Below the pieces are notes generated by a model. That model was not told the origin of the DNA. It ran no database searches and saw only the letters and a program-made list of their open reading frames with translations. Both the position numbers and the translations under genes were made by a program. From Owenia fusiformis (taxonomy: Eukaryota > Annelida > Polychaeta > Sabellida > Oweniidae), in the NCBI GenBank assembly GCA_903813345.2, contig CAIIXF020000005.1:5051375-5115374 (forward strand): DNA of 64,000 bases, in the 5' to 3' direction. Below, in pieces: positions 3,001-54,700 of this stretch (position 1 is the first letter of the stretch; the number at the start of each line of letters is the position of its first letter).

Positions 3001-6000
3001 ACATATTGGAGTTATCAATCAACTATGTGAAGCATGTCAGATATGGAATAGGATGAAATGAATGAATGCGTCATAAGGAAACTGAAAATAACGCTAATAT
3101 TCGCATGAATTTCTTCACTCAATCTCGGTTTGAGACAAATTAAATTCCAAGATTTTACGGTCAGTATTTCTCAGAGATTTAATCGAGAAAAAATCTGTAA
3201 TATTTTCTGAAAATCAGTCAATATTTCATAATTCATTTCTGGTACTAGACAAGATTCTCTACCGAATTATTAATATTAATAATAACTTCATCGTGCAGGA
3301 GCTGTTAATGCACCAAATGTCAAAATAAAACACATTTCAAATATGGTAAACTGACGCTAAATGACTAGTAAATTAAAGCGAAAAATCTATAGTTCCTGTC
3401 GCATCAGTTTTTCTGAGCTTGAAATTAGACTATTCAATTCCATCTCCCACGCAATACAGCTATGTAGGCTTGATTTGCTACGTAATTTCTAATATCATTG
3501 AGTGTTGAAAGTAAAAAAGAACAACAGAAACACTCATTTTAGCCACAAAACTGATAATCTTACCCTAATAACTAAATAAATATATGTAAATATTTTATGC
3601 ACATATGACATATGGATAGATTGCAAAGGTAGATTGTCAGGGACTATGTCAGAATAGGTGCAAGTAAGTTAGTGCTGTATGAAGTTGCCGATTGTACCCC
3701 CCCCCCCCCATTGCCCAAATACAATTACAATCCCTTGACAAAGAAATCTAAATAGATGCACAACATTTCCGAGCATTCATACAAAATATATTTTGAATTA
3801 TTTGGGAGGAAATAAAACCAAACTCTACATTATTAGACGACCTATATTTGAAAACATGATCCAATAAGTTCGACAGAGCTTATGAATGCTAAAACGCACC
3901 AATGATGGCTGGCATGAATTATTGAATCGGATTGTCTCTGTGGAATGAGGCTATAATGTAAAAGTCCCCTTGGAGGAGTAAGGATATAATGTAATAGTCC
4001 CATTGGTGCTATCTCCTGTGGGAGATAATGGGATACATTATGTTAATGTTATTTATTGTACCATAAAGTAACAAACAAATATGAACCAATACAAGAGACA
4101 AAGGCCATAATACCCCCATAATAAACTGGCTTGAAATGTATAATAGAAGGTCGCATTTGTTTGCATCAAGTCAAGCCTCAATGAGACAGATTGATTTTGT
4201 TGTCGCATAGTTGGCACAAATTACACAAACCCCATTGTGTACTTAGAAACATATGTTAATACACAATGGGAATGGCATAACTGCAAATTGGGTACAATTA
4301 AAAATTCTCACTAAATATACTAATATTAACGCACAGCTGTTTTACTATTTTACCATCATAATTCTCTCACATAATGAATCTATTGTTCTTCAGATAAATG
4401 AGCTGGAAAATAATCAAATAAGTGAAGTTATTGAATATAACATTATGTAATCAAGAAATCGATGGAAGAGACTCAATGATGACTTGGATTAATTTTTTCT
4501 ATCAGCTAGTTTAGATCTACTTAGGAATGAAGTCATTGTGCAAAATGCTGAAGATAACGAGGTCAATTTAATATTTTTTTTCTTCATCTGAGAATATTAT
4601 TAATTAGTAATGACCCAAAGAATTGATTTCCATTGTTTTAGTAATTTATGATAAAGACTAATTACCAAGGAAGCCCCGCCTACTATTGGTTGTATGTCTA
4701 GAACAAAGCACACTTAATGACCTGGGTTCTGTCCTCGTTACAGAACAATTCTTTGATTCTGATATATAACAAGGGCCATATCCAATTAAATCTTCTAATT
4801 ATGTGCATTCCTTTAAATCAAAGAAACAAATATATATGCACCTTAGAATTCAATTTTGGACAGAAGCACATGGTCAGCGACCAGGCTTACTATGGCGTTG
4901 TGGTTTGAAAAATGCTGCAATGCCTCACTCAGCTGATCAATGAAACACTGTTGTTAACTCTTAGCCCACATAGGGAAGTTCAAATACCAAGAATATCTAA
5001 AACACAGCGGTAATGCTGATAAAAAGAACATGTTCCATTAGAAATTCAAGTGTCTTCCATTCCAACATCAAAGATAACGTTTCGTGTTTTACCATGAACA
5101 AGAGTAATTTGCCTCTCTATATTATCTAATAATACTGAATGTATATTGAGTTGCATAACATCAATAACATAGAAGCACTTTGGAGCCTGGAGAGTGGTTA
5201 TAGAGAGGTGGAATCAATGTAGGTGTCTGATGACCAGCCAAACATGACTCAAAATTTGCCTCTCAGGGCCTTCTACTATGACATTTTATAAATTGATGAA
5301 AAGTCAAACTGTGCTATCATTAGTTTATAGCAGAATAACAAATCGTATTATCTTTGTGTTTGATTGCAGTATAATCAGAAGAATAATTAGTAAGGCAGCT
5401 GATGCTCTAATACATGTTCATAATAGAAAATGTGATTAGCTAAATGTTATATGGGTTCAGTACCCCCTACCAACATCATCAAACTATGCTTTTATATATT
5501 CTCAACTCTCAGGGAATGAAGTTTATACACCCCCCCCCTCTCCCTTCAATATAACGGGGGTTAGTCTTGCTTTAAAATTGTAGAAATCCCCCCCCCCTTA
5601 TCTTCCTAACCAAATCACCAATACATCATTGTGTTGAGGTGTGTAATGGGGAGGGGGGCTTACAAGAGCTTGTAGCAAGACTAAATGTGGCTTGATGCAA
5701 GACTATATATTAAAAAATCTGTGCTGATCAGCGATTAAAACGATTGTTTTATCTATAAGATGATCAAAAGGATTCCGCCATTATAATTTGGCTTCAAACC
5801 CACCTACTGTCAGTTTTAGAACTCTAAAATTAGATGAATTGATGAATGGCTCAATGCCCTAATATCATCTGGAGATCTGATGCTTATATAAGATATAAGA
5901 GGGTATCACAGACTGATGCCTTATAAGATTGCATATGATATTCTTGGGATTAGATTATCAATCTTACCTTTGGCTTATGTCATGAGATGATAGCGATTGA

Positions 6001-19073: not shown

Positions 19074-22000
19074 ATGGCTGAAGCTCCACTGGATGTTGAT
19101 GGGCGCATCAATCTTGATTCCCCCCGCTATGACCAATCAACATTTGTCGGGAGAGCAAGGCATTTCTTCATTACAACAAATCCTTTGAATCTGTTCGCAT
19201 CTGGATCAGACCTTGACAATGCTAAAGCAGTAGTTGAAAGTTATAAGTAGGTACTTGATTCTTTCACAAATTCTGCAAAACAGTTAATATATGAGAAAAC
19301 AGGTAACCTGAGAGTAGAGCCTGAAGAGCAGAAGGGGAGCAGGGGTATGTGAAGGGCACAGATATACCTTCTCCCTTATTTCCCAATGAATCAAAAAATT
19401 CAAACAATTTTTAGCGAATTTGCTATTTTATGCTTTCGAATGCAACGAAGTGTCAGTTTAGTTTGTAGATTCTGCTTGTAAGTTTACTTATTTGTTATAT
19501 ATTTTCAAGAAACTAGGTCCACTTTCTTGAATGAACTACCGTGAACAACAGCATTCTGCCAATTATCACATATTTATTACATTATTCTTCATAACTTTAG
19601 GAAACGTGCTGAGCCTCCAGGTTTAACAGCAGATGAAGTATGGCGTGCCAAAAGTCTTTACGACTCTGCGTTTCATCCAGACACTGGGGAGAAAATGATG
19701 TTGATAGGGCGCATGTCTGCTCAGGTGCCTATGAACATGAGCATTACAGGGTGCATGATGACATGGTACAGGTGAGCAACTTCTTTAACCCTTATCCTCC
19801 TGGTTTAAAATGGGGTCTGTAACAAATGGCACATGCTGATATTTTGCCTGTTATTTGCCTTGTTGAGAATTACACCCTGCAATGTTACGGGGCAGTGTCA
19901 CAGAGTTGAGGATCACACTATGAATTGTCAGACTCAAGGTCTCCCTCATACTAAGAGTAAGGATGAAAACATATGTAAATATAATCAAATAAGTCACCAT
20001 ATTGTGACATTAAAAAGGATTCAAAGAGGCACTATCAAGTACTGAAATATGTATCTAACCCAAAAATATATTGATCAATGTTTCTGTTTATATTCAGGAC
20101 AACTCCAGCAGTATTGTTTTGGCAGTGGATTAACCAGACATTCAATGCAGTGGTCAACTATACAAACAGGAGTGGAGACTCACCTATACCACTCAAGTAA
20201 GGAGTTTTCACATTTGTATACAGCCTTGTAAAAGGTGTGTGTCAAAATTTGTCAAAAATAGAAATTCAGGAATGTTTCTTTGCTCAACTCATCATCTGTT
20301 TGCCAGCCATTTATTCTTAAGTACTGTACATGTGCATATCTGCAGATCCATAGTCTTTAAAGAGAAGTCCTTGATTGTTATGTCATCATATTAACAGTTG
20401 AGAGATTTCATTCTTGATTTCAATCTCCAATTTTAGGACACTGGGAATCTCCTACACTCTTGCCACATCAGGGGCGGTTATCACTGCACTTGGAGTTAAT
20501 AAACTAGTAACTGTAAGTTGATATGATAGGTTGATTCAAATTCAGCTTTCATATTATTTAATCTTCAATTTGTATAAAAATGAGATAAAAAGGTTGCTAA
20601 CAAATTTCTGCTTAATCAAGTTATAAAGTAGCATAAAATCCACTGATCGTTACCATATGAGCAAATAACACTATAACACTAACACGATATGTAAAACGAA
20701 ATTTGTTATGTCACCACCAAAAGTGGTGACATATTGTTATGGCGGTTGGTGGGTGGCGGTTGGCGGTTGGTGTCTGTAACAAGTTCTTAAAACTTCCAAT
20801 AACTTAACAAATACTGTTTAGATTCCAAATCATCTTCAAGGTTTCAGAAGTTCAAATCTTACTTTACATTTATGATTTGACCTTCAATGACCTTTTCAAG
20901 GTCAAAGAAAGGTCAAAAAGGTCTTTTTTCAACTTGCTTCAAATTGACCAATATTTTTCAAAATCCTGTACAAGTTCTCAAAAGTTCAAATCTGACTATA
21001 GAGTTGACCTTCAGTGACATTCTCAAGGTCAAAAAAGATTTGACCTTCAATGACCATCCCAAGGTCAAAAAGGTCTTTTTTCAACTTTTGACCAATTTTT
21101 TTCAATACCATCTCAGAAATTTAAATCTGACATAAGATTTAACTAATAATATTGTGAGCAACTAGGGTGTGACATTTTGTCATGTTAATGCCTTGTTATG
21201 TCTTCTAATCAGTACTATTATGTGTATAGTTGTATATTGTATTCATATTGTATTTTTTAGAAAGCTCCACCCATAGTTGGTCGCTTTGTCCCTTTCACTG
21301 CTGTTGCTGCTGCTAACTGTATCAATATACCTTGTATGTTTCAGAAAGCCCCACCTATAGTTGCTCGCTTTGTCCCATTCACTGCTGTTGCTGCTGCTAA
21401 CTGTATCAATATACCTTGTATGTTTCAGAAAGCCCCACCTATAGTTGGTCGCTTTGTCCCATTCACTGCTGTTGCTGCTGCTAACTGTATCAATATACCT
21501 TGTATGTTTCAGAAAGCCCCACCTATAGTTGGTCGCTTTGTCCCATTCACTGCTGTTGCTGCTGCTAACTGTATCAATATACCTTCTATGTTTCAGAAAG
21601 CCCCACCTATAGTTGGTCGCTTTGTCCCATTCACTGCTGTTGCTGCTGCTAACTGTATCAATATACCTTCTATGTTTCAGAAAGCCCCACCTATAGTTGG
21701 TCGCTTTGTCCCATTCACTGCTGTTGCTGCTGCTAACTGTATCAATATACCTTGTATGTTTCAGAAAGCCCCACCCATAGTTGGTCGCTTTGTCCCTTTC
21801 ACTGCTGTTGCTGCTGCTAACTGTATCAATATACCTTGTATGTTTCAGAAAGCCCCACCCATAGTTGGTCGCTTTGTCCCATTCACTGCTGTTGCTGCTG
21901 CTAACTGTATCAATATACCTTGTATGTTTCAGAAAGCCCCACCCATAGTTGGTCGCTTTGTCCCTTTCACTGCTGTTGCTGCTGCTAACTGTATCAATAT

Positions 22001-25000
22001 ACCTTGTATGTTTCAGAAAGCCCCACCCATAGTTGGTCGCTTTGTCCCATTCACTGCTGTTGCTGCTGCTAACTGTATCAATATACCTTGTATGTTTCAG
22101 AAAGCCCCACCCATAGTTGGTCGCTTTGTCCCTTTCACTGCTGTTGCTGCTGCTAACTGTATCAATATACCTTGTATGTTTCAGGAAGCCCCACCCATAG
22201 TTGGTCGCTTTGTCCCATTCACTGCTGTTGCTGCTGCTAACTGTATCAATATACCTTATATGTTTCAGAAAGCCCCACCTATAGTTGGTCGCTTTGTCCC
22301 TTTCACTGCTGTTGCTGCTGCTAACTGTATCAATATACCTTGTATGTTTCAGAAAGCCCCACCTATAGTTGGTCGCTTTGTCCCATTCACTGCTGTTGCT
22401 GCTGCTAACTGTATCAATATACCTTGTACACACATCCTAGTTTTCTGCATGAGAAAAATGCAAATTCTGCGCAGAAATTCTGCATGAAAAAGCCAAATTC
22501 TGCACCAAATTCTGCATGAAATCTAAAATTCTGCGCCAAATTCTGAACGGGGAAAAGTGACATTTTGTGGTTCAAGTATGTGCAAAAAATGAAATTCTTG
22601 CTAAAATCAATAATTTTTTCCAAAAAATGAATAATTCAAAATTCTTGAACTCCACTCATGCTGCTTTATTCAGCGATAATGGACAACTGCAGTAATAACA
22701 CCAGATGCAATTTTAATCAATATCAGCGACAAAACTTACCAAATGCTCACTTGTGAACTATCACGAAATTCAAAGTATCACGAAATTCCAGATCAATATG
22801 CAGGGAATTCAGATGTCGTTTATTTATATATGACGAAGTAAAACGCAAGAAGAAGCATGATTTATTGTGTTAGAATACAAAATAATACAATATTAGGCAT
22901 ATAATTGCAAAACAATTACGAGGGACAGTCATCGGTTTCAAATTTCGTGATTATGTTAGACGCAGTCTTAACTCTAAGTGCAAAGGCGGAAGTTCGAGAA
23001 TTTAAAACAGATTTCAGATTTCCTCTTGAAAATCTGACAAAACACAAGTATCTGACAACAAACGAGCGGAGTCTTTGGGTGTTTAGGTGAGTGACAAATA
23101 TGAGATGAGATGGTTGACTGGAAAAATCATGTTTTCCGCGAAATTCCGTGCCAAAACAAAAATTCTGCAAAAAAAATGAAAATGCAAATTTCTGCGGTTT
23201 TTCTGCGGCGACGCGGAATCACGGAATACTAGGATGAGTGCTTGTATGTTTCAGAAAGCCCCACCCATAGTTGGTCGCTTTGTCCCATTCACTGCTGTTG
23301 CTGCTGCTAACTGTATCAATATACCTTATATGTTTCAGAAAGCCCCACCTATAGTTGGTCGCTTTGTCCCTTTCACTGCTGTTGCTGCTGCTAACTGTAT
23401 CAATATACCTTGTATGTTTCAGAAAGCCCCACCTATAGTTGGTCGCTTTGTCCCATCCACTGCTGTTGCTGCTGCTAACTGTATCAATATACCTTGTATG
23501 TTTCAGAAAGCCCCACCCATAGTTGGTCGCTTTGTCCCTTTCACTGCTGTTGCTGCTGCTAACTGTATAAATATACCTTGTATGTTTCAGAAAGCCCCAC
23601 CTATAGTTGGTCGCTTTGTCCCTTTCACTGCTGTTGCTGCTGCTAACTGTATCAATATACCTTGTATGTTTCAGAAAGCTCCACCCATAGTTGGTCGCTT
23701 TGTCCCTTTCACTGCTGTTGCTGCTGCTAACTGTATCAATATACCTTGTATGTTTCAGAAAGCCCCACCCATAGTTGGTCGCTTTGTCCCTTTCACTGCT
23801 GTTGCTGCTGCTAACTGTATCAATATACCTTGTATGTTTCAGAAAGCCCCACCTATAGTTGGTCGCTTTGTCCCTTTCACTGCTGTTGCTCCTGCTAACT
23901 GTATCAATATACCTTGTATGTTTCAGAAAGCCCCACCTATAGTTGGTCACTTTGTCCCATTCACTGCTGTTGCTGCTGCTAACTGTATCAATATACCTTG
24001 TATGTTTTAGAAAGCCCCACCTATAGTTGGTCGCTTTGTCCCTTTCACTGCTGTTGCTGCTGCTAACTGTATCGATATACCTTGTATGTTTTAGAAAGCC
24101 CCACCTATAGTTGGTCGCTTTGTCCCATTCACTGCTGTTACTGCTGCTAACTGTATCAATATACCTTGTATGTTTCAGAAAGCCCCACCTATAGTTGGTC
24201 GCTTTGTCCCTTTCACTGCTGTTGCTGCTGCTAACCGCATCAATATACCTTGTATTTTTTAGAAAGCCCCACCCATAGTTGGTCGCTTTGTCCCATTCAC
24301 TGCTGTTGCTGCTGCTAACTGTATCAATATACCTTGTATGTTTCAGAAAGCCCCACCTATAGTTGGTCGCTTTGTCCCATTCACTGCTGTTGCTGCTGCT
24401 AACTGTATCAATATACCTTGTATGTTTCAGAAAGCCCCACCTATAGTTGGTCGCTTTGTCCCTTTCACTGCTGTTGCTGCTGCTAACTGTATCAATATAC
24501 CTTGTATGTTTCAGAAAGCCCCACCCATAGTTGGTCGCTTTGTCCCATTCACTGCTGTTGCTGCTGCTAACTGTATCAATATACCTTGTATGTTTCAGAA
24601 AGCCCCACCCATAGTTGGTCGCTTTGTCCCATTCACTGCTGTTGCTGCTGCTAACTGTATCAATATACCTTATATGTTTCAGAAAGCCCCACCTATAGTT
24701 GGTCGCTTTGTCCCTTTCACTGCTGTTGCTGCTGCTAACTGTATCAATATACCTTGTATGTTTCAGAAAGCCCCACCTATAGTTGGTCGCTTTGTCCCAT
24801 TCACTGCTGTTGCTGCTGCTAACTGTATCAATATACCTTGTATGTTTCAGAAAGCCCCACCCATAGTTGGTCGCTTTGTCCCTTTCACTGCTGTTGCTGC
24901 TGCTAACTGTATCAATATACCTTGTATGTTTCAGAAAGCCCCACCTATAGTTGGTCGCTTTGTCCCTTTCACTGCTGTTGCTCCTGCTAACTGTATCAAT

Positions 25001-27800
25001 ATACCTTGTATGTTTCAGAAAGCCCCACCTATAGTTGGTCACTTTGTCCCATTCACTGCTGTTGCTGCTGCTAACTGTATCAATATACCTTGTATGTTTT
25101 AGAAAGCCCCACCTATAGTTGGTCGCTTTGTCCCTTTCACTGCTGTTGCTGCTGCTAACTGTATCAATATACCTTGTATGTTTTAGAAAGCCCCACCTAT
25201 AGTTGGTCGCTTTGTCCCATTCACTGCTGTTGCTGCTGCTAACTGTATCAATATACCTTGTATGTTTCAGAAAGCCCCACCTATAGTTGGTCGCTTTGTC
25301 CCTTTCACTGCTGTTGCTGCTGCTAACCGCATCAATATACCTTGTATTTTTTAGAAAGCCCCACCCATAGTTGGTCGCTTTGTCCCATTCACTGCTGTTG
25401 CTGCTGCTAACTGTATCAATATACCTTGTATGTTTCAGAAAGCCCCACCTATAGTTGGTCGCTTTGTCCCATTCACTGCTGTTGCTGCTGCTAACTGTAT
25501 CAATATACCTTGTATGTTTCAGAAAGCCCCACCTATAGTTGGTCGCTTTGTCCCATTCACTGCTGTTGCTGCTTCTAAATGTATCAATATACCTTGTATG
25601 TTTCAGAAAGCCCCACCTATAGTTGGTCGCTTTGTCCCCTTCACTGCTGTTGCTGCTGCTAACTGTATAAATATACCTTGTATGTTTCAGAAAGCCCCAC
25701 CTATAGTTGGTCACTTTGTCCCATTCACTGCTGTTGCTGCTGCTAACTGTATCAATATACCTTCTATGTTTCAGAAAGCCCCACCTATAGTTGGTCGCTT
25801 TGTCCCATTCACTGCTGTTGCTAACTGTATCAATATACCTTGTATGTTTCAGAAAGCCCCACCTATAGTTGGTCGCTTTGTCCCATTCACTGCTGTTGCT
25901 GCTGCTAACTGTATCAATATACCTTGTATGTTTCAGAAAGCCCCACCCATAGTTGGTCGCTTTGTCCCTTTCACTGCTGTTGCTGCTGCTAACTGTATCA
26001 ATATACCTTGTATGTTTCAGAAAGCCCCACCTATAGTTGGTCGCTTTGTCCCATTCACTGCTGTTGCTGCTGCTAACTGTATCAATATACCTTGTATGTT
26101 TCAGAAAGCCCCACCTATAGTTGGTCGCTTTGTCCCATTCACTGCTGTTGCTGCTGCTAACTGTATCAATATACCTTGTATGAGGAATAGGTAGGTCTTA
26201 ATTCAATATGATTACACAAAGACTGTAGAATAAAGAAAGTAATTTTAGATAATGATACATTGGATTGTGAGTATTTTCTGAACAAAAAAAAACAATGGAG
26301 ACCTATATATGACATTTTGGAGGTTTATCAAGAAAATATATGTTAAGAAAGTGTTTGCATTTTAAAAATTTGGAAAAATTACCTGTATTCAATACACTTA
26401 TTTTTTCCTATTTCAGTGAAATGGTGAATGGTATCCCAGTATATAATGCAGAGGGAGAGAGGGTGGGAGAATCAACGGCAGCAGCTAAGAAAGCTATAGG
26501 TCTAGTGGTGTTCTCTAGGATATGTATGGCCACACCTGGCATGTGTGAGTACTCTATTAAGTCATTTACCCTTAGGGTCATCTTGGGCTCATTTTTTAAA
26601 TAAAATATGTTGTAAATGTTGTTGATTTATTTTACTGTCATTGGATCAATGTCAATAGAAAACACTATATTTCGATCTTTAATTTTTATGTCACTACCAG
26701 AAGTGGCAACATATTGTTATAGGCAGTCATTGTTTATTGTCTGTAACAAATGGCAGGTGGTGATATTTTGTATGTTAATACCTTGTTCACAATTATGCTT
26801 AAGTTGGTTACTGTATGTTTTCTAAGGACCTTAATTCCTACAGTATGTTTACCTGTATATAATGAAATAATATTTGCATGATTTTTAATACTAAATGTGT
26901 TTATATTTCAGTAATTCCTCCCTTTATAATGCAGTATTTGGAAAATAAAACAACGATTTTAAAAGTAAGTACATCACTTTATATTGCCATGATTACCCAC
27001 CAGTTGTGCTGTACATGTATTCATATTGTACCATAGCATATTGATTTGTTTATTGTAAAACTATGATTTAAATACAGTTAAATAATCATATGAATTACAA
27101 ATGGCCCATGTTATCCACATGCAAATTCTAAAAAAAGTGATTTGATTGTTGTAGAGGTTTCCCTGGGCTAATGCTCCTATACCAGCTAGTCTAATATGCT
27201 GGTATTTGCCAGTTGATTACTTACTTGCCAGATGAATACTTGTGTGCTAGTTGATTAACAAAAAGTGATTTGATTGTTGTAGAGATTCCCCTGGGCTAAT
27301 GCTCCTATACAAGTTGGTCTAGTGGGTTTCATGCTGGTTTTTGCCACACCACTTTGTTGTGCTCTCTTCCCACAGAAAAGGTAAGAAGTCCAATTGATTT
27401 TAAAGGAAATTATTTGCTGTTAACTGCATGCCAAAACAGATCTTCAGACATCTTACATTTGTTTTTCAAATTTTTTGTTTATTTTAATTATGAATTTTAG
27501 AGATTTTTACCAGTTTTTGAATTTTATAGGCAAAATTCGAATTTTACAATGACTTCAATAAATCAAGAAAAGACACTTTGGAAATTGTTAGCCTTCTAAT
27601 TTTGGAAAATTTTGTGATGTGATGCTGGTTCATCATGGTATCCAGCTTATCTCCAGATGTTTGTACAATTCAAGTTATATGGGATTATAATTTGATTTTC
27701 CAGCTCAATGGCTCTCAACTCATTAGAAGCAGACCTGCAGGAAAAACTGAAGGCATTACCCAACACCCCTGATGTTGTATACTTCAACAAAGGATTATAA
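19074..27800 (+). CDS. Sideroflexin (SFXN1/3-type mitochondrial amino-acid transporter)
   Basis: Sideroflexins are multi-pass inner-mitochondrial-membrane proteins; SFXN1 and SFXN3 carry serine for one-carbon metabolism. Nine coding exons join in phase: 19074-19246, 19601-19771, 20098-20196, 20437-20512, 26105-26190, 26417-26544, 26912-26964, 27283-27380 and 27704-27800. They give 326 aa (human SFXN1 is 322). Family hallmarks, in order, are [14 protein letters not shown] (19-32), HPDTGEK (83-89), [55 protein letters not shown] (from about 180), GES..AAKKAI, the IPPFIM block, [27 protein letters not shown] and the C-terminal VYFNKGL. Thirteen UTR bases precede the ATG in its exon. Intron 5 (20513-26104) is expanded by the 84-bp exon-derived array. 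For the fifth coding exon listed, only the last copy has a true donor (AATAG|GTAGGT). A possible AATAAA lies at 27844. Confidence 0.95.
20704..21196 (+). repeat. Dispersed repeat of the GTCACCACC family in sideroflexin intron 5
   Basis: The block starts TATGTCACCACCAAAAGTGG and ends near GTGACATTTTGTCATGTT, followed by AATGCCTTGTTATG. Internally it has GGCGGTTGG repeats and several AAGGTCAAAAA-type repeats. Related blocks occur at about 26685-26795 and 28750-28795 (plus) and 55384-55536 and 63086-63177 (minus), with a fragment near 19812-19862. Common landmarks are CTGTAACAAATGGCA, GGTGGTGACAT and TGTTAATGCC. It is probably a non-autonomous transposon family. Confidence 0.6.
21261..22428 (+). 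repeat. Exon-derived 84-bp tandem array, first block (14 units)
   Basis: Fourteen head-to-tail units of exactly 84 bases start at AAAGC (21261) and the last starts at 22353 (13 x 84 = 1092). Each unit is the first 26 codons of the sideroflexin GRFVPF exon plus GTATG and a rebuilt 3' splice site, TTTCAG. The first unit follows a genuine-looking intron end (TTGTATTTTTTAG). The unit length is a multiple of three and has no stop in the sideroflexin frame, so the frame stays open through the whole block. It then runs into the inserted transposon and terminates. Differences between units are mostly CCT/CCC, CCA/CCT and GCC/GCT at third codon positions. Confidence 0.97.
22429..23240. mobile_element. 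812-bp non-autonomous DNA transposon inside the exon array
   Basis: The element has 17-bp terminal inverted repeats, CACACATCCTAGTTTTC on the left and CACTCATCCTAGTATTC (reverse complement of the right end), differing at two positions. It is flanked by CTTGTA at 22423-22428 and 23241-23246; since one array unit contains CTTGTA once, this is a 6-bp target duplication. AATTCTGC and TTCTGCATG repeats crowd both ends. Its open frames (61-84 codons) resemble nothing I know, so no transposase is claimed. Superfamily unknown. Confidence 0.85.
23247..26182 (+). repeat. Exon-derived 84-bp tandem array, second block (35 units)
   Basis: Unit starts run from 23255 to 26105, the last being the functional exon. 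The spacing total, 2850, equals 34 x 84 minus 6; one unit near 25815 has lost two Ala codons in frame. Six units carry TTTTAG or TTTTTTAG instead of TTTCAG (AAAG at 24011, 24095, 24263, 25103, 25187 and 25355), which puts TAG in the read-through frame while keeping a splice acceptor. After 25355 the last ten units are open and in frame with the true donor. About 23750-24460 reappears at about 24842-25552, an offset of 1092 bases (13 units), showing an internal segmental duplication. Confidence 0.97.
26685..26795 (+). repeat. Short copy of the GTCACCACC repeat family
   Basis: It contains TTTTTATGTCACTACCAGAA, CTGTCTGTAACAAATGGCAG-like sequence and GGTGGTGATATTTTGTATG followed by TTAATACC, the ordered landmarks of the larger copy at 20.7 kb. 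It lies in the sideroflexin intron between 26544 and 26912. Confidence 0.5.
27131..27212 (+). pseudogene. Decayed partial duplicate of the RFPW exon of sideroflexin
   Basis: The stretch AAAAAGTGATTTGATTGTTG, then TAG|AGGTTTCCCTGGGCTAATGC, repeats the intron end and first part of the true exon at 27283. The copy reads RFPWANAPI and then diverges (PASLICWYL). It lacks the second half of the exon and the [13 protein letters not shown] coding and donor. Its acceptor still looks usable, so it is a potential cryptic exon about 128 bases upstream of the real one. Confidence 0.75.
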
Positions 27801-36700: not shown

Positions 36701-39700
36701 ACTTAATATTTCCATATTTTAAAAATGTTAAATACAAGTACAAGCGTAGGTAGGATGTTCTTAGGTTGATGTTTTTAATAACCGCGATTATTAAGAAATA
36801 CACATGCATATCAGCTACCAGGCCTGTCACCTGGCCAAAATTACTTTCAAAATAATACTCTCAAAATCATGCAGCTTTTAACCATTTTGAACCAATTGTC
36901 AAGGAATCCCCCCTAGAATTTTTTAAAAACTGAACCCCCTTGACAAAACCTGCATACAGGCCTGGATGCATGCAATGTTCTTATTTTACACAAAAGTTGT
37001 ACATAAATAGGGAATATTCAACAATCTCAACAAATCAAGATAGACAAATCAAGATTACCTGGATTGAATAATCAGGGCCAAATAATGTTAACTGGATACA
37101 GAACTGATGTACATTGTATACTTGTACATTGATTCACAAAAATGAATTATTTGCTGCAAGTCTGTACCATAGGGCTTCTCAGAAAAGCCCATGAGAACTA
37201 GTATATATCCATATTTCAAGAATTTTCTTATGCAACTACGCAAAACAAACTCAAAAAGTAAATGTCTCATTATGTACCAGTTTACTGTAATTAGGGCCCG
37301 GTGATTTCAGTCAAATATACATTCATGCAAATTAACGTAATTTGTTGGGAGAGAAAACAGTGAGAGGTGCACCAGGCCCGTAGCCAGGGGGGGGGGGTTC
37401 ACTGGGTTTGGGCGAACCCCCCCCTGGCCAAAAATCAAAATCATGGCAAATCCTGGCTACGGGCCTGTGCACGCTTGTGCTAAAACGTTTTCATGCATTG
37501 GATCCTAGCAAAAATATCCCTTTCTTTAAAGATCACAAAGCCATTGGCAATGGTAATTTTCACACAAGAACACAAATGTGTACAAAATGTCCCCACCTAT
37601 GGGTGATCCTGTTAAATGGTTATCCTAAAAATGAGTAGACAAGACTTTACAGACACAATTTGATGACGGAAAATCCAAAATGGCCACCTTAAAATTTACC
37701 TAGAATGCCAAAAAACTAATCAGATCTAGATTTTCATACTAAGAATCATCCCTGAAAATTTGAAATTGATCTACAAAACGGTTCACCTAAAAACGCGTAG
37801 ACAAAACTTTACGGGCAGGATTTTAAGACGGAAAATCCAAAATGGCTGCCTTGGCATTTATCCAGAATGCCAAAAAACTAATCAGATCTAGATTTTCATA
37901 CTAAGAATCATCCCTGAAAATTTGAAATTGATCTACAAAATGGTTCACCTAAAAACGCATAGACAAGACTTTACGGGCAGGATTTTAAGACGGAAAATCC
38001 AAAATGGCTGCCTTGACATTTATCCAGAATGCCAAAAAACTGATCAGATCTAGATTTTCATATTAAGAATCATCCCTGAAAATTTGAAATTGATCTACCA
38101 AACGGTTCACCGGGAAATACGTAGACAAAACTCTACAGACAAGATTTTAGGACGGAAAATCCAAAATGGCTGCCTTGGCATTTACCCAGAATGCCCAAAT
38201 ACTAATCAGATCTAGATTTTCATACTAAGAATCATCCCTGAAAATTTGAAATTGATCTACAGAACTGTTCACCTGGAAATGCGTAGACAAGACTTTACAG
38301 ACAATATTTTAGGACGGAAAATCCAAAATGGCTGCCTTGACAATTACCCAGAATGCCAAAAAACTAATCAGTTGTACATTTTCATATTAAGGATCATCCC
38401 TGAAAAATTGAAATTGATCTACCAAACAGTTCACCTGAAAACGCGTAGACAAGACTTTACAGACAAGATTTTAGGACGGAAAATCCAAAATGGCTGCCTT
38501 GACATTTACCCAGAATGCCAAAAAACTAATCAGATCTAGATTTTTATACTAAGAATCATCCCTGAAAATCAAGAATTGATCCACCAAACGGTTCACCTGA
38601 AAACACGTAGACAAGACTCCATAGACAAGATTTTAGGACGGAAAATCCAAAATGGCTGACAATAAAAAAGTGATCATGAGTTTTTGCTGATTTCTTTTTA
38701 CAAAATCATCACATATAAATACTGTTAACAACAACATAGGCTTTAACAACAAAGTACATCTGAAATTATTTATAAAGCTACTAAATAGTTAGAATATGAA
38801 AACTCAAAAACACCATTCAATATGATACAAAGTATTATCGTGCGCTAACTTTTCTTAAGACATTCAAAATGGCTGACATGACTGAGCTAACAGGTCCAAA
38901 ACCTAATCAGATCTAGAATGAAGTGAGCTGAACAAGATGTTAAAGTTTTAAAAGCAACTGTGAAGCCGTTTTTCTTAAAGTTTGCAGACAAGGATTTTAG
39001 CATTTGACATCAAAATGGCCGACAGGAAGTAGGTATCGAGTTAATTTTTTTTCATCCACATCTGTATGCACTCATAAGTTATCCCTGAAAATTTGAAGGT
39101 GATATCTGTAGCGGTTTTGGAGAAAACTCCCGGACGTACGGACGGACAGATGGACGGACGGACGGACAGACGGACGGACGGACGCGCCTAGGCCGACAAT
39201 ATGGCCCCACACTATGTGGTGGGGACATAGTGGGGACATAAAAAGGATTTTTGCTAAAAACCTTTGTTTTCAGGACACCTAAACAGACCTGGGGAACTAC
39301 ACTTTTTACCTACTATCATAATCTTTTACAGGGGAGCCCAATTTTATTAATCAAAACTCCAATTCTAAATATTTTTTCTGGAAATGTAAGGTCTCCCAAG
39401 ATCTGTTATCTTTTACAACTTAATTAATATTAAGACATACGTTATATGAGTACCCTTCACTCAAATTTGTCTCGTCAATTTGAAGTTAAGTCAAATAAAA
39501 TCTCATATAGTCAAAATACATAATGTTATAAATGTGCATGATAATCAAAATCATAACCATGTGCTGGGTACTATGTGAACATTATTTAAAAAACATGCAA
39601 CATGAAAAAACATAACATAAACCAACATGACTTATTAGGGGGGGGATATTACATATACTGTACACAGTGCAACAGCAACTTAACAATTAACATGCCAGTA

Positions 39701-45700: not shown

Positions 45701-48700
45701 TGAGTGCTATATTTGAAGAAGGTTTACTTGCACATATGCAAGCTTTTGCAATAATTGGATTTCTAGCTGTAATTGTCTACCTATTAATTCATGGACAGAA
45801 CAAAAGAGGTAATATTTATTTTCTTTCAGAACTTTTAAAATATTTTACAGCTGTTTAGATTCACTTGTTTGATCTTTGTATTAAATAAACTTAAAGAAAT
45901 GCAGGTTACTTTGACACCCTAGCATTAGAGGCAAGGCAAGCACTTGGTTGAAAATCTGAAAATTATAGTCTCCTAGTTGAAAATCTCTGCACCTTGCCAA
46001 TAAGAGTGAAATACTGTGACATTTTGATAACAAGGCACATGATGTGAACGAGGTCACACCATCGCAAAACCTTCAAATTGGCCACCAGAAAACAAGATGG
46101 CCACTCAAAGTTAATCAGCTCTAGAACTTAATATCTTCTATCATGTGTGCAGATTTGTAGAAAATCCGATGAGTAGTTTTCCTGAAATAGCGATGACAAG
46201 ATTTATTGTAAAACCTTCAAAATGGCCATAAGAAAACAAGATGGCCACCCAAAAGTTAATCAGCTCTAGAACTTAATATCCTTTATCATGTGTGCGAATT
46301 TGTAAAAAATCTGATGAGTGGTTTTCCTGAAATGGCGATGACACGATTTATCGAAAAACCTTCAAAATGGTCACCAGAAAATAAGATAGCTGCCCAAAAG
46401 TTTCTAAGCTCTAGACCTTGATATCCTCTATGATGTGTGTGAGTTTGGAGAAAATCTGATGAATGGAGACAATCATGACAACAATCACGATAACCAAGAT
46501 ATGAGCCAATGAAATAATAAGTTTGTTTTAACTACATAGTTGTCAGACTAATGGATTTAAAGCAATTGCTTTTAATAATTGACATACAGTGGAACATCCT
46601 CAATTTTAACAACATACAAGCACACATCATAGTATGCTTTGTGCTAACGTTCCAGAATATAATAGTTCAGAAGAGTAAATATTGCTACACTCATTCCCTT
46701 TAAATATTTAAATTCTAGATGGAGATGTTCCACATGTCTGGAATTATCCCACCTTAGTGAGGCAGCAGGGCTATCCAAGTGGAGTATTTTCAATGGGACC
46801 TCCTTCAGGTATTATTATTGATAACCAAGAAAATGATACATACAGTCTTATCATGAATTGTGGAGGCAAACTGATAGTTTAAAGTTTATTGTTATATTGA
46901 TATATTGCGGCTTTGTGAGATAAAACTTTTTCAAGGGATATGTTCTTAATAATAATCAACATTGTAGAGTGTCACATACTCATTTTAAACAACTCATCAT
47001 ATAATATCATGCATTATTCTATGCCAAGCAGAGTTTTAGGGAGATAACTTGGTAAAATATATCCCATATCCTGATTTTGAGGTTTCCATATCCTGAACCT
47101 CCATATCTCCTGCTCCAGGACATATCTTTCCCCTTCGAAAAAAAATTTTGAAAAAATTGAAAAAAAGAAAAAATGTGAAAAAAAATTTGAAAAAATTTAA
47201 AATTGAAAAAAGAAAAAAATAGAAAAAAAAATGTGAAAAAATTAAAAATAAAATTAGAAAAATGTGAAAAAATTGAAAAAATAAAAAAAATTGAAAAAAT
47301 TTAAAGAAAATTAGAAAACTCTACTTGGTATAGGATAAAGAAGTTATGTACGGTCGGTTTGGATATTGGGTTCATCCCTCGTGAGATATACACATCTACC
47401 TTCGGTCCCTACGGTCCCTCAGGTAGATATGCATATCTCCCTCTGGATAAACCCCATATCCAAAACCTCCCAGTACATAACCCTTATTTACAGCAATACT
47501 CCAGAATATTCAAAATTAAGTGAAGCTGTTACTCTTGTTTCCTTTTAAATAGCTGGTTTCAAATTGAATTTTAGATGGAGATGTTCCACATGGCCGCAAT
47601 AATAGCGATAATCCAACCTTGGAGAGGCAGCAAGACTATCCAGACAGAGTATTTTCAATGGCACCTCCTTCAGATACAATTGTTGACAACCAACAAAATG
47701 GTGCACTTCGAGAATCATGTGAGCAAACTGTTCTGATTGATGGCAAAAAAAGAATTTTGATGACCCCTGCAGAATATGGGTTGCTAACTGATAAAGTTCA
47801 AATACTTGAAAAGACCCATGAACTTGACCATTTTAAGGACAAATATGTAAAGGATTTAGAAATGACAGTGAAACATGTAAAGGATGATTCTGAGAGAGGT
47901 ATTATATGTTATGATAAGAAGTCTGAGGAACTTTTAGAAGCCAGAATAAATTATAAATCAAAATGTGATGAGACCGTTAAACTAAAAAAATGTAATCTTA
48001 ATTATGAGGCAGAAAATGCTAGAATGAGAGAACTCATAACTATCAAAGAAACTGAAAATAAAGAGTTGAATGAACGGCTTCTCACACTTTCTCAGCCTGA
48101 CAAAAATTTTGAAGAAAAGTTAAAGGAAAATGCAACTTTGAAAAAAAACTTGGAAGAAGAAGAGGCTAAGAATACTCAGTTGAATGAACAATTATCTGCA
48201 AAAGAAAAAGAAAATATTAGATCCATTCAGAAACTAAAAAAGATTGAAAAAGAAAATCTTGAACTAAAAGAAAAACTTGCAAAACTTGAGAGTGAGAATA
48301 ATCAATTGCAACAAAAGCTTTTAGACAAAGAGAAGGAAAATAATGTTGCAAAACAAGGTCTAACAGAGAAAGATAAAGAAAATGTGAAACTCAAAGAAAT
48401 TTTACATGGTTACGAAAACGATAAAGAAAATGTGGGATTAAGTGTCAATCTACCAGAAAAAGAAAATATTGGGTCAGAACATGAGTTAGAAAACATTGTC
48501 AAGGAAAATAATGAGTTTACAAATAAGGAATTAGAAAAGGGGGATGAAAGTACTGAGACAACAAACAAGGACTCAGAAATGGAAGAAAATTCTGAGACAA
48601 AAGGTAGGGAATTGGAAAAAGTAAATGATGAGACAAGTTATAAAAACTTTGAACATAATTCTGAGATCACAAATAAGGAATTACAAAGAGAAAGAGAATC

Positions 48701-51700
48701 TCCAGAGATAAAGGAGAAGGAGTCAGAAAACAAAAGTAAACATAGAAGTGAACAACAAATTAGTTGTCAGACTCATGAACTTTTATGTGAAAAATTGGCA
48801 CAAAGGGAGGCTGAAAATCTTGAGTTAACAAAACTGCCATTCAAAATTGAAAATGAAAATATTGGATTTATACAGAGCTTAAAAGAAATTGGTAACCAAA
48901 TTAATGAGATACAAAGAAAGCTGACCAATGTTTTGGATGAAACAACTAAATTGCAACAAATATTCCTTGAAAACACAAAGACTACAGATAAGGAATCAGA
49001 AAACTCTGCGACCACAACTAAGGAGTCAGAAATAGAGGGGAACCGTTTTGAATCTACAAAGAAGGAATCAGATCAGCCAAATGATATTTCTAAGAGAGCA
49101 AATAAGCAATCAGGAACAGAGGAAGATATTTCTGAAACTATAAATAAGAAATCAAAACAATGTGGGTCTACAAACAGGGAATTGATGAAAGAAAAAGAAA
49201 ATACTGGGAGCACAAATATGGAGTCAAAAAAAGAAAATTGTACAAATAAGGAATCAGAAAAAGAGCAAGGTGTTCCTAAAAACATAAATAGGGAATCAAA
49301 AATGTGTGGGTCTTCAGACAAGGAATTTACTAAAGGTGAAGAAAACAATGGAAGCATAAATAACCAGTTAGAAAAAGAAAATTCTGAGAATGCAAATACA
49401 GTATCAGAAAGAGATAAATCTGATATCGCAAATACTGAATACAAAAGTTGTGGCCCCACAAAAAAGGAATTGACAAAAGAAGAAAATGCTGAGAGCACAA
49501 ATAAGAAGTTGGAAAAATTTAATTCTGAGAGTGCTAAAACAGAATCAGAAAAAGAAGAAGATGACTCAGATATCGCAAACACTGAATACAAAAATTGTGG
49601 CCCCACAAAAAAGGAATTGACAAAAGAAGAAAATGCTGAGAGCACAAATAAGAAGTTGGAAAAATTTAATTCTGAGAGTGCTAAAACAGAATCAGAAAAA
49701 GAAGAAGATGACTCAGATATCTCAAATACTGAATACAAAAATTGTGGCCCCACAAAAAAGGAATTGACAAAAGAAGAAAATGCTGAGAGCACAAATAAGA
49801 ACTTAGAAAAAGAAAATACAGAGATGGTAAATTAGAAAATGGTAATTCTGATATCAGCACAATAAGCACAATCAAAAATGTGGGTAAATAAACTGAAAAA
49901 AGAAGAAAATAATGAACCCACAATTATCGAGAGAGAAAAAGAAAATTTTGAAATAGAAAACATAGAATAAGAAAAAGAGGAACAGACTTCTGGAACTACA
50001 ACTGATGAATAAAAAGTCAGATTCAAATATATTTTCTCATTTTTTTCATCTGGAGTAACATCTGAATTAAGAAGATTCTTAGCCTTTTCTTCTGATTTAA
50101 GCAAGACAAAGAAGGTCCTGAAAATAATAACAATTTGTTGTACATACAGGTACCTCTTCCATTATAAATGTATCTTAGTTATTTAATTATATTCTACTAG
50201 CATTATATTGTACCACATCATGTCACAATACAGTATGTAGCCTAATAATTAATAATCACTGTAAATAGATCATCAAGGTGGTGGTAAAAGTGTAACAATG
50301 TACCTGGTAAATTAATTGGCAGAATGAAATTATAGGTGACAATATCATACACAAACCACAGCACTTTCAGATAGAGTGTACATGTATTTTGAAAATCATT
50401 TGCCAGTTCAATGTTGACAATTTTGGTCCAAAAATGGCCAAAATCGCTCAAAGGTGCTCAGAATGGTGAAAAACTGTGTGATTTCAAAAGAAGGTTTGGC
50501 CTTACCTACGGGCCTGTTTGCATTGTATAAATGTATGTTATGAACAAAATTGTTTAAAAAAATATTTTATTTTGATGTACATGCACCATCATTTTTTAAA
50601 AGTCTAACAAAGAAACTGTATGATTGAATAATTCGGAAGACTAACAAAATACTGTAAACAACACTGGTCAACTTTGAAAAGAAATGAAAAGTAATGCTTC
50701 TTTTCAACAATATATTGTACATACTGAATTTATTATGTTTACTATTATTGAATGCCGAAGTGTGTGTGTCCTAGAAATCATTCTACATGTCATTTTATAT
50801 AAAAGACTAATAAAATGCCAGAATTGTTAGAAAACACACATCTTGATTATTATGCTATTATAATAAAGATGCCAGATATATGTGTATACTGAAATCATGT
50901 GTTCATTCCTCATTCCTCCCAGTCCCTCCTCTCTCAGAGTTTGAGGCTCTCCTCCCATCACTCACAGTCTGAAGCATTCAATAAAGCAACATATATTCAT
51001 AATGAATTTAAACTATCCTTACCTTATGCTGCCTTTGAATCCAGACATTCCCTGTGCTCTCTCAGGAATCTCAAGATTGGTGACTGCTACTGATGTCCCA
51101 GAAGTCTTTCCTGCAGATTCTGTAGCAGATTCTTTGTTCCCCACATCTGTAACCAATTCACTGTTTGACTTTTGGGACAGACTTGATGAAAGCTGAAACA
51201 ATTCAAATTGAAACTTACTTATTTTAATGCAAAGGGTTTATTTCAATCTATGGGCAACAATGGCATCTCCCCCATGGATTTCTTTCCTGATCCACAAACA
51301 GCAAGGAAGTGGAGGGTGTTATAGTACATTTAGTTAGCAAACCTATAAACTGAATTCATTGGTATCATAACAGGGTGACAGTGATGTTAAAGGTATAAGA
51401 GATCATATACATGCACTAACATAAAGTATACTCAACATATACAATATAAAGTATACTCAACATATACAATATAAAGTATACTCAACATATACAATATAAA
51501 GTATACTCAACATATACAATATAAAGTATACTCAACATATACAATATAAAGTATACTCAACATATACAATATAAAGTATACTCAACATATACAATATAAA
51601 GTATACTCAACATATACAATATAAAGTATACTCAACATATACAATATAAAGTATACTCAACATATACAATATAAAGTATACTCAACATAAACAATATAAA

Positions 51701-54700
51701 GTATACTCAACATATACAATATAAAGTATACTCAACATATACAATATAAAGTATACTCAACATATACAATATAAAGTATACTCAACATATACAATATAAA
51801 GTATACTCAACATATACAATATAAAGTATACTCAACATATACAATATAAAGTATACACAACATATACAATATAAAGTATACTCAACATATACAATATAAA
51901 GTATACTCAATATATATAATGCAATATAACAGTACAAGACAACATAAAATCACTTAGGGGTAAATCAAAAACTAAAATGTTGACCCACCTGATTCATTAA
52001 ACCTTTTGACCTCCTATGTGGTCTTGAACTAGCCTTTGATTTCGATCCTCTGGGACTTAGGGTTAACATCTTTACATAAACAACATGTACATGTTAGACA
52101 CAATATAAATTAAAGTACATCGTGAACAGAGATGCTTTAGAAGATAAATGCTGGTGAAGAATAAAATACATGTGTATGACAATTACAAGTGAGAAATCAT
52201 AAAAGAAGTGGATATGAGAAATTAAATTGATATTACAAAATTAATAGTGCAAAGATATAATAACGTTAACAATAAATAGATAAAAGAATGGATTAAATGA
52301 ATGTGTTTTTAAAAATTAGAAATATGCATAATATACAGACATGTAATCATAAAATTGCACTAAAACTAAACACACGTAAAAATATGAATAAAGGAAAAGC
52401 TAGGCATGAAAAGAATATAACTACAGTATACTAGGATATTCTAAAAACTATTAAATTGCAAAAAATCGGAGACTTTTACCTGCATAAATTCACTTCAATT
52501 GGATCATTTGTAGGTGTTCAAATAGGAACTGACATACTTACCATCTTAAACATCATCGCATATTTGGGATGGAGAAACTAAGAATTCTTAACTAGAGAAA
52601 GGCAACTCTAGTATTTGATAGATGAGCGACGGACAGCTTTACTATATTCCTACCATACTTCGCTCCTTGGGAAAAGGAGACTTACTGGGTTTCAGACTAA
52701 ATTGTCTTTTTGCTTCATACAGTCACTAAAAATGTCATGTATCTTATTGATAACTTTATCAGGTTATTTTCAAAATTCCTATTTCAAAATTCCCTGACAA
52801 TTCCAGATGCTGAAAATACATTTCCCTGGTATTTTCAGATTCGTAGGAAACCTGTTATACTCGACTACATGGATGACGAGTCCACAGTTCTGAGGACTTC
52901 CCTCTTATCTGCCATTAGTTGGGACGAGATAGATGGATTTGGAAAATTAAGCTCTTTTCACCCTAACCAGCAATCACCTACATACTGATGATACTATACA
53001 CTAAGATACTCAGAAGCTGGCTAGCAAAGCTGGAAACAGGGTGCTACATAAGCACTGGTCTATGTAGAAAAATGTCAAGTAAATTTCACTATGGATAAGC
53101 TGATATAGAAGCATGTCTAAGAAAATAATATGTTTAAATTCAACTTTGACTAATATGTTTAAAATTCCTATGAGGCACTCTGGCTGAACATGGATGCTTT
53201 GCAATAAAACTTCCCTAGTAATAGCATCTTAACTACAGGGTGTTCACTTGGAAATCTCTCAAGGACCTTAACTACAGGGTGTTACAAACAAACCTGTACC
53301 TGTGTGTTATATTGACTGGTAGATCTGGGTGTGCTTAGCTCCCCACCTACAGATTGCTGACCCCTAGGGGCCCTGTAGGTTGCCTTAGTAGCTTTATTCA
53401 GCTAAAGGAGTTAATACATAAAATGAATGAGAAAATCCACATACATATACAGTACACACCATTCATGGCAATCAAATAGTTTATATTTCTGATGAAAATA
53501 ATTCAGATTATACAATCAGAAAATAAAATATCTGAATAGACAATAATAAATATCTAAAAGTCTGCTAATCAATTATCAAAGGCAATGTTTTATTTTGTGC
53601 CAGGTATGTACAAAATAAAGCATCAATCACTAGAACATATAAGGCAATGTATTTGAAGCTTTTCATTATAAAATAAAATAAAATGAAACTAGAAATACAT
53701 ATTGTGAAGTAGTCCAATCAAATAATAGAACTAAATCTTGATGAGGTGAAGCCCTACCATGAACTTGATTGGCTAAAACAGTGAACAGTTTAAATATGTA
53801 AGAACTTTACAACAAACATGAAAATAAAATGTGCACACACATATACAGGTAATCATGCATTTTCATTACAGGGTCTGTTAATTTCCAACAGTATATTAAT
53901 AATATTGTAATATATTTTGCAAATTCCCTCTCTCCATACATAACAAACAAATGAATGCCATAAAATGTCTGTTGGATTAATTTGGGAATATTATGGCAAT
54001 AATCAGGCATATTGGGTAAATAATACTAACATGACCTGGTGTATACCCAATATGAACTACTAGATATAACATTAGAGAAGAGGTGGGAGTGTTAATGATG
54101 CATACGCATACATCAAAAAATTCCAGGCTTCAATATTTTGTTTTAATAAATCATATGATCAATTAAGTTTTCATTGCTCTCAATTTCTTGCTCATCAATC
54201 CACCCTAAACAAAATAGTCTCTTGTTTGGTAAAATGCTTGAGTTCCCCTACCTTAGCTTTGCTGCTGGTAGACTTAGAGCCATCCTGAGGTGGTCTGACA
54301 GGACGTCTGGTGCCACTGTGAATACGTTTCCTATCACCACTCAACTCTTTCTTTTTGACCTCACGCACTGCTCTCTGTTCCACTGGCTAAAATAGAAAAT
54401 ATTTTGAATGTAAGTTTACCCTCTTTAACTGATTAATACAGAATATGAGGTGTAGGATTTGGAAATATGAAATAACTTTCCAAATGTTTAACAGATGGCT
54501 CTCACTTCAAAGGTTTTTACATTTTGCTCCTGTTGTATTTTAATGCAATTGGTCACGGGGTAGGCAACATGCGAAGGCCTATTGAAGTGAGACATGTTGG
54601 AAAAGCATGGTTTTAAAAGCATGAAGTCTTCATGGCTGGAAATATGACCTATGTCTTGCACCCAGATAATTATTGTATGTCTACTTTGCATAGTATAGAG

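Follow-up and report, generated by a model that had tools for sequence, protein, structure and literature searches.

A probable splice-acceptor minisatellite made from part of a sideroflexin exon

How can a gene contain dozens of tandem copies of part of one of its own exons, each of them preceded by what looks like a splice acceptor, and nevertheless retain a frame that encodes a complete protein? This question is raised by a locus in the window, i.e. the stretch of 64,000 nucleotides of Owenia fusiformis DNA analysed here (contig C5, positions 5051375-5115374), which we studied within the genome as a whole (498,259,871 bases in 525 contigs). The answer that we favour, as the probable if far from certain explanation, is that the array is a minisatellite of splice acceptors which derives from a conserved exon, was born by duplication, spread by unequal exchange, and has been tolerated by way of its intact last copy.

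The gene in question has nine coding exons and is located at positions 19074-27800 on the plus strand, as are all features described below unless stated otherwise. Based on the spliced frame and the Pfam family SFXNs (PF03820), coding exons 1-4 were placed at 19074-19246, 19601-19771, 20098-20196 and 20437-20512, exon 5 (86 nt, donor GTAGGT), which is the intact copy 49 of the array, at 26105-26190, and coding exons 6-9 at 26417-26544, 26912-26964, 27283-27380 and 27704-27800. Spliced via the last array copy, these exons yield 326 codons and a stop, and the protein obtained in that way is a sideroflexin over its full length, matching positions 1-319 of the 319 in the model with 468.4 bits (cut-off 22). 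The donors that follow coding exons 1-8 all start with GT; coding exon 4 ends at 20512 in phase 0 before the donor GTAAGT, and the 3' border of exon 5 reads ATGAGGAATAG/GTAGGT (the slash marks the border). Judged from its intact frame, the gene appears to be functional. No PDB chain matched the sideroflexin at E <= 0.001 when one was sought to place the repeated segment. The intron that houses the array measures 748 nt up to the first acceptor and 5592 nt (20513-26104) when removed via the last one, compared with 226-367 nt for the seven remaining introns of the coding region. A second partial exon duplicate, single and decayed, is found at 27129-27211 and comprises an acceptor and the start of exon 8: the acceptor lies 128 bp upstream of the true exon 8 acceptor, with its last 15 nt identical, and a 7-bp gap in the exon part shifts the frame.

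A direct scan of the assembly recovered 49 copies of the unit, which consists of the first 78 nt of exon 5 (the exon encoding GRFVPF) followed by TTTCAG or TTTTAG, with a period of 84 bp. Copies 1-14 (21261-22428) start between 21261 and 22353, the last of them being cut off by a transposable element, and copies 15-49 (23255-26182) start between 23255 and 26105; Tandem Repeats Finder described the two blocks as 84 bp x 14.1 (97% matches, score 2222) and 84 bp x 35.1 (96% matches, score 5464). Copy 45, which starts at 25775, measures 78 bp, as it misses 6 bp while keeping the frame, and one continuous reading frame runs through each block with 28 codons per copy (26 in copy 45). Only copy 49 runs on into the intact end of the exon. 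The array contains 23 distinct units (copies 14, 45 and 49 included), and copies differ from one another at 2.3 of the 84 positions on average when copy 45 is left out. A query of two units returned 24 matches in the genome, all 24 inside this array, in a search in which a missing match is no proof of rarity; neither a second array nor a leftover second haplotype was seen in the genome searches with the sideroflexin and the two-unit queries. The array is thereby a minisatellite, namely a head-to-tail series of 49 units of 84 bp (within the range of roughly 10-100 bp) with matches confined to one locus, and not satellite DNA, which would occupy many loci or form long arrays genome-wide, whereas here the two-unit matches all fall in the array.

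A preliminary description of this DNA, made from the letters alone, had already given 49 copies of an 84-bp unit, 14 and 35 in number, and the scan agrees with it down to the coordinates, apart from the 78 bp of copy 45. Its view of the gene as an otherwise normal one of 326 codons is borne out by the match to the whole Pfam model, and its view that part of an exon was amplified while the terminal copy stayed intact by copy 49, which is the complete exon 5. It had, however, taken the array to lie in intron 5, whereas the intron concerned is the one that follows coding exon 4 and would be the fifth if an upstream non-coding exon were counted; and the two blocks, although counted correctly, are a single array that was cut by the transposable element of 812 bp.

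Some further repeats and frames were observed along the way. Two other tandem arrays occur in the window, at 51421-51920 (25 bp x 20, 98% matches) and at 37624-38658 (162 bp x 6.4, 90% matches), and an open frame of 755 aa at 47568-49835 has internal repeats of 144-147 bp (49099-49811) and no Pfam match. On the minus strand, an open frame of 992 aa (23219-26197) runs through copies 15-49, while the sense frame is broken by TAG codons; as a unit of 28 codons has fair odds of leaving one antisense frame open, this frame is probably due to chance.

Could the array simply be an error of the assembly, in which one copy of an exon was multiplied? The array is known from one assembly, and the exact copy number given there may be wrong. 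An artefact of this kind would be expected to produce identical units, however, whereas the array holds the 23 distinct units, an inserted element with a clean target duplication, and a block duplication that has since diverged, and we therefore regard an assembly error as very improbable. The inserted element (22429-23240, 812 bp) has the inverted ends CACACATCCTAG and CACTCATCCTAG and is flanked by a 6-bp target duplication, CTTGTA, which implies that a transposable element inserted into copy 14 once the array existed. It belongs to a family of about 0.8 kb with the ends CACWCATCCTAG, and is found in at least 39 other places of the genome with 85-98% identity, mostly nearly whole and in some cases partial (the best 40 of 281 candidates were scored, and the 41 matches listed comprise its own copy and 39 places, one of them in two pieces). 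Among the matches listed, these places are on contigs C1-C3, C5-C12 and C80, and the identities of up to 98% suggest that the family was active recently.

The block duplication is a matter of the order of the copies. Between 23759 and 25522, copies 21-28 (23759-24430) and copies 34-41 (24851-25522) show 2 differences in 672 bp, and the corresponding period of 13 copies is the strongest of all lags from 1 to 24, being matched by 3 of 1000 shuffles of the copy order (copy 45 left out). Such a period is what unequal exchange would give, and it argues against an assembler that repeated one copy.

How, then, might the first duplicate have arisen? The hexamer TTGTAT occurs both in TTGTATTTTTTAG, with which the intron ends before copy 1, and in CTTGTATGAGG, with which the exon ends, and a duplication seam at this hexamer would account for the unit. 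In the mechanism that we propose, a tandem duplication would have brought the exon up against the last nucleotides of the intron before it at TTGTAT, as suggested by the seam, and would thereby have copied 13 nt of the intron end together with 71 nt of exon. The acceptor of copy 1 (21248-21260), which lacks the TGCTAAC site discussed below, is likely the original 3' end of the intron. The copies with TTTTAG are likely the older ones and TTTCAG the form that spread, in which case the in-frame stops that TTTTAG brings along would be ancestral and no sign of decay. Unequal exchange would subsequently have carried the array to its 49 copies, including the recent block duplication with its period of 13 copies, and the transposable element would have entered copy 14; the pattern itself is visible in the copies, and the process behind it is what we infer.

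What distinguishes the unit from an arbitrary piece of coding sequence is the set of splice signals that it appears to hold. An acceptor-like 13-mer with AG precedes each of the 49 copies, and the codons GCT AAC, which encode Ala-Asn in the exon and follow a T, create the branch-site-like heptamer TGCTAAC. This heptamer is a close match to the branch-site consensus; the distance from its presumed branch A to the last G of the acceptor AG is 28 nt in 46 of the 49 cases (the heptamer is absent for copies 1, 15 and 43), and outside the array it occurs three times on the plus strand in 59,057 bases of the window. Each unit is thus a near-complete predicted 3' splice site, in keeping with the earlier claim that every copy has one of its own; the branch-site-like heptamer adds to the splicing content beyond what the preliminary description had mentioned. 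The same description had every unit end in TTTCAG, which holds for the CAG of 42 acceptors, while the remaining 7 end in TAG.

To score these acceptors, a position weight model was derived from 14 real ones, namely the 7 of this gene outside intron 4 and 7 from two paralogues, i.e. from sites of three related genes with some borders picked by eye. Seven of the nine paralogue exon borders were used, those of paralogue g3 at 4628 and 6610 being dropped as they had no clear acceptor. More introns for training were sought with nine open frames, chosen from 42 of at least 90 aa, a total to which the frames of the array also contribute; Pfam gave no family for these nine, and the model was consequently built from sideroflexin genes alone. 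In the array, 35 of the 49 acceptors score 8.6, the six internal ones with TAG score 7.0-7.1 and that of copy 1 scores 9.5, the minimum being 7.0. Leave-one-out scoring of the 14 real acceptors gave a median of 6.2 (range 2.1-13.7), and for 3,218 background AGs in the window the median was -2.6 and the 95th percentile 5.6. Judged by this small model, none of the 49 acceptors falls short of a typical real one. We also asked whether RNA folds hide the acceptors: two array units gave z = -1.4 relative to 200 mononucleotide shuffles.

The weight of the branch-site-like heptamer should not be overrated. The motif CTRAY is present in the last 60 nt of intron 2 alone among the seven other introns of the gene, and the looser yUnAy in all of them, so a strong branch site may be of little importance here. 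In the case of copy 1, the sole CTRAY is far upstream, at -56, with another AG in between, for which reason the internal copies may be better acceptors than copy 1. Regarding donors, the true donor AG/GTAGGT follows copy 49 and is absent from copies 1-48, and a weaker donor-like sequence, TTGTATGT, is present in 39 of the 49 copies, by means of which splicing from unit to unit could occur.

The consequences of using each acceptor can be predicted by joining exon 4 to it and reading on to the donor after 26190 (the donor-like TTGTATGT of the 39 copies being ignored). On this prediction, 10 of the 49 acceptors give a full-length protein and 39 a stop. The productive ones are those of copies 40-49 (25355-26190), which form one open frame to the true end of the exon and yield proteins of 576, 548, 520, 492, 464, 436, 410, 382, 354 and 326 residues, respectively. 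The acceptors of copies 1-14 would lead to a stop inside the transposable element, and those of copies 15-39 to a stop at the TAG that closes copy 23, 24, 26, 36, 37 or 39. These six in-frame TAGs (24008-25354, starting at 24008, 24092, 24260, 25100, 25184 and 25352) are the ends of the TTTTAG acceptors of the following copies, and it is they that make acceptors 15-39 unproductive in the prediction.

The open frame of the last ten copies brings up the possibility that the array is coding, in the sense that acceptors 40-48 are regularly used and give rise to transporters with one to nine additional hydrophobic segments of about 28 residues. The unit is indeed a multiple of three, the frame of copies 40-49 reaches the true donor, and the segment is a hydrophobic one, with a mean of 1.53 on the Kyte-Doolittle scale over its best 19 residues. 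The six TAG codons break the array further upstream, however, and a transporter whose match to its family is otherwise complete would presumably be disturbed by additional membrane segments. Moreover, the variants look neutral: the 78 coding positions show 19 types of variant, of which 13 are nonsynonymous, compared with a neutral expectation of 74% (P = 0.60; copy 45, with its 6-bp deletion, excluded and copies 14 and 49 truncated to 76 and 78 nt, respectively). Synonymous changes account for the common variants (positions 12 and 33), nonsynonymous ones for most of the rarer types. The repeated peptide thus gives no sign of selection, it being understood that 19 types are a small number and that redundant copies are free to vary regardless. 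We consider a coding role improbable.

The large share of unproductive acceptors can be read in two further ways, both of which involve the other sideroflexin genes. The 43 sideroflexin matches listed for the genome are all on contig C5 and represent three loci, provided that C5:38827k-38850k is one gene; two of the three are about 1.5 Mb apart. The first reading is that the array has crippled the gene, which would then be a pseudogene in the making with its role taken over by the two further loci on C5. The acceptors that are unproductive in prediction agree with this, but the frame of 326 codons is intact, all eight donors have their GT and the family match reaches 468.4 bits. The paralogues have furthermore diverged, with 38-64% identity (six aligned pieces) and 21-55% identity (five) to the window gene, and are therefore no recent replacements for it, which leaves gene decay an unlikely explanation.

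The second reading, which we also think doubtful, although a shade less so, is that the array is a regulatory device under selection, in which U2AF and U2 snRNP are captured together by many decoy 3' splice sites, splicing is slowed or poisoned, and the level of this sideroflexin is controlled in that way. In its favour, 39 of the 49 acceptors are predicted to lead to a premature stop. In the excerpted text of PMC5389562, two U2AF or two U2 snRNPs may bind strong duplicated 3' splice sites at the same time, and such dual occupancy inhibits splicing in vitro. This inhibition, as far as the excerpts go, likewise supports a more specific proposal, namely that of a natural decoy field in which dozens of units, each a branch site plus acceptor, recruit U2AF and U2 snRNP together and the copy number tunes the amount of functional sideroflexin mRNA; to us this has a small chance of being right, between those of the two readings just given.

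Additional support for regulation may be sought in the paralogue at C5:38827k-38850k, where a pyrimidine-rich minisatellite with a 23-bp unit, TTGAGTATACCTACCTCCTTTGT, and about 36 copies (C5:38846529-38847359) ends 11 bp before the homologous exon, its sequence being unrelated to that of the 84-bp unit. If the decoy field were real, this tract would be a second, convergent case. The repeats of the paralogue are mostly weak sites, however, given their low scores: 20 of its 34 scored AGs have 3.8 and the highest has 6.5, compared with 6.6 for the true acceptor there when left out of the training. That arrays abut the same exon at two of the three sideroflexin loci is striking on the face of it, but was noticed after the fact and may be a coincidence. 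Also at odds with a selected device are the neutral-like variants, and the AG that is intact in all copies is uninformative in view of how few mutations there are.

Returning to the acceptor minisatellite that we favour, each new copy would have come with a near-complete 3' splice site, in which TGCTAAC serves as the branch site and the acceptor is TTTTAG, replaced over time by TTTCAG in most copies; the signals are there to be seen, their use would follow from the proposed mechanism. The gene would persist because its last copy remains a full exon. With 86 nt between them, the acceptor of copy 49 and the donor that follows position 26190 could pair across the exon, and the exons defined by the last three acceptors would measure 254, 170 and 86 nt. 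Since nowhere else is a short exon bounded by both an acceptor and a good donor, splicing most likely proceeds mainly via the last acceptor or the last few. Upstream acceptors would give aberrant RNA or, in the case of copies 40-48, isoforms that keep the frame and gain additional 28-residue segments, so that the array would be largely neutral baggage, which may reduce the efficiency of splicing.

This explanation is favoured by the intact product, the TGCTAAC in 46 of 49 copies, the acceptor scores, the 10 of 49 acceptors that are productive and the neutral-like variants, as well as by the 24 two-unit matches, all of which fall in the array, its 13-copy period and the published choice of the distal site in beta-globin duplicates (in the excerpts of PMC5389562, duplicated beta-globin 3' splice sites are spliced exclusively to the distal site). 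Weighing against it are the upstream acceptors, which score equally well and are transcribed first, the possibly minor role of the branch site, the 19 variant types, the 14 sites behind the model and the fact that the gene is judged from its frame only.

How does the array relate to systems that are already known? Among the open-licence papers listed in searches on the subject, none was seen to describe an exon array that carries acceptors and is as large as this one, but several better-known phenomena share some of its features. The gain of introns by tandem genomic duplication of an exon segment that bears AGGT is well described, as far as the excerpts of PMC3443670 and PMC2891723 go. In both situations the tandem duplication of exon sequence creates new choices of splice site and the gene is not destroyed. 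Intron gain, however, puts a new intron inside an exon and uses the duplicated AGGT as both donor and acceptor, whereas the sideroflexin unit is without the true donor AG/GTAGGT, and the duplication spanned an existing acceptor, merely enlarging the intron and giving rise to 49 copies. Introns that come from tandem arrays in human genes, and are situated inside the repeats, were reportedly described by Zhuo et al. in 2007. That study is cited in PMC2746811, PMC2394776 and PMC7242645, to judge from excerpts of these papers. Common to both would be repeated segments which bear splice sites and undergo alternative splicing; unlike those arrays, the one in the sideroflexin gene repeats no full exon with a true donor of its own. 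Nor is it a set of mutually exclusive exons of the Dscam type, as copies 1-48 are without the true donor and the variants are neutral-like (13 of 19 nonsynonymous).

With respect to competition between acceptors, a parallel is provided by laboratory pre-mRNAs with duplicated 3' splice sites, reportedly also the subject of Reed and Maniatis (1986). The constructs in the excerpted text of PMC5389562 resemble the array in placing identical competing 3' splice sites behind one donor, but have two such sites where the natural gene has 49. The sideroflexin gene is in that respect a natural competition of 49 near-identical sites that differ mainly in position, and it could discriminate between proximity, exon definition and site strength. 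It further implies that a conserved exon can seed a minisatellite, one duplication across an intron-exon junction sufficing for a nearly self-contained acceptor unit, since the coding sequence happened to hold a branch-site-like sequence.

A precedent in kind is the minisatellite of the human gene IFI6 (6-16, G1P3), which has a unit of 12 bp. It was described by Turri, Cuin and Porter (1995) as a minisatellite with multiple splice donor sites, as cited in passages of PMC4526556 and PMC2572611, and, in the former, two downstream repeat units act as splice donors and result in three mRNA species. The preliminary description had seen no earlier account of such an expansion, but the repeated splice donors of IFI6 do not support the view that the kind is entirely new. 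Both are minisatellites at an exon-intron border with splice-site sequence in their units, in our case as read from the DNA. The differences are that in IFI6 it is the donor that is repeated, in a short unit, with several units being used in mRNA, whereas the 84-bp unit of the sideroflexin array, which we liken to it from sequence alone, combines an acceptor, a branch-site-like sequence and 26 codons of a conserved exon and is present 49 times. On these grounds the predicted acceptor array is the counterpart of IFI6, with a longer unit, more coding content and a branch-site-like sequence that is supplied by the codons themselves.
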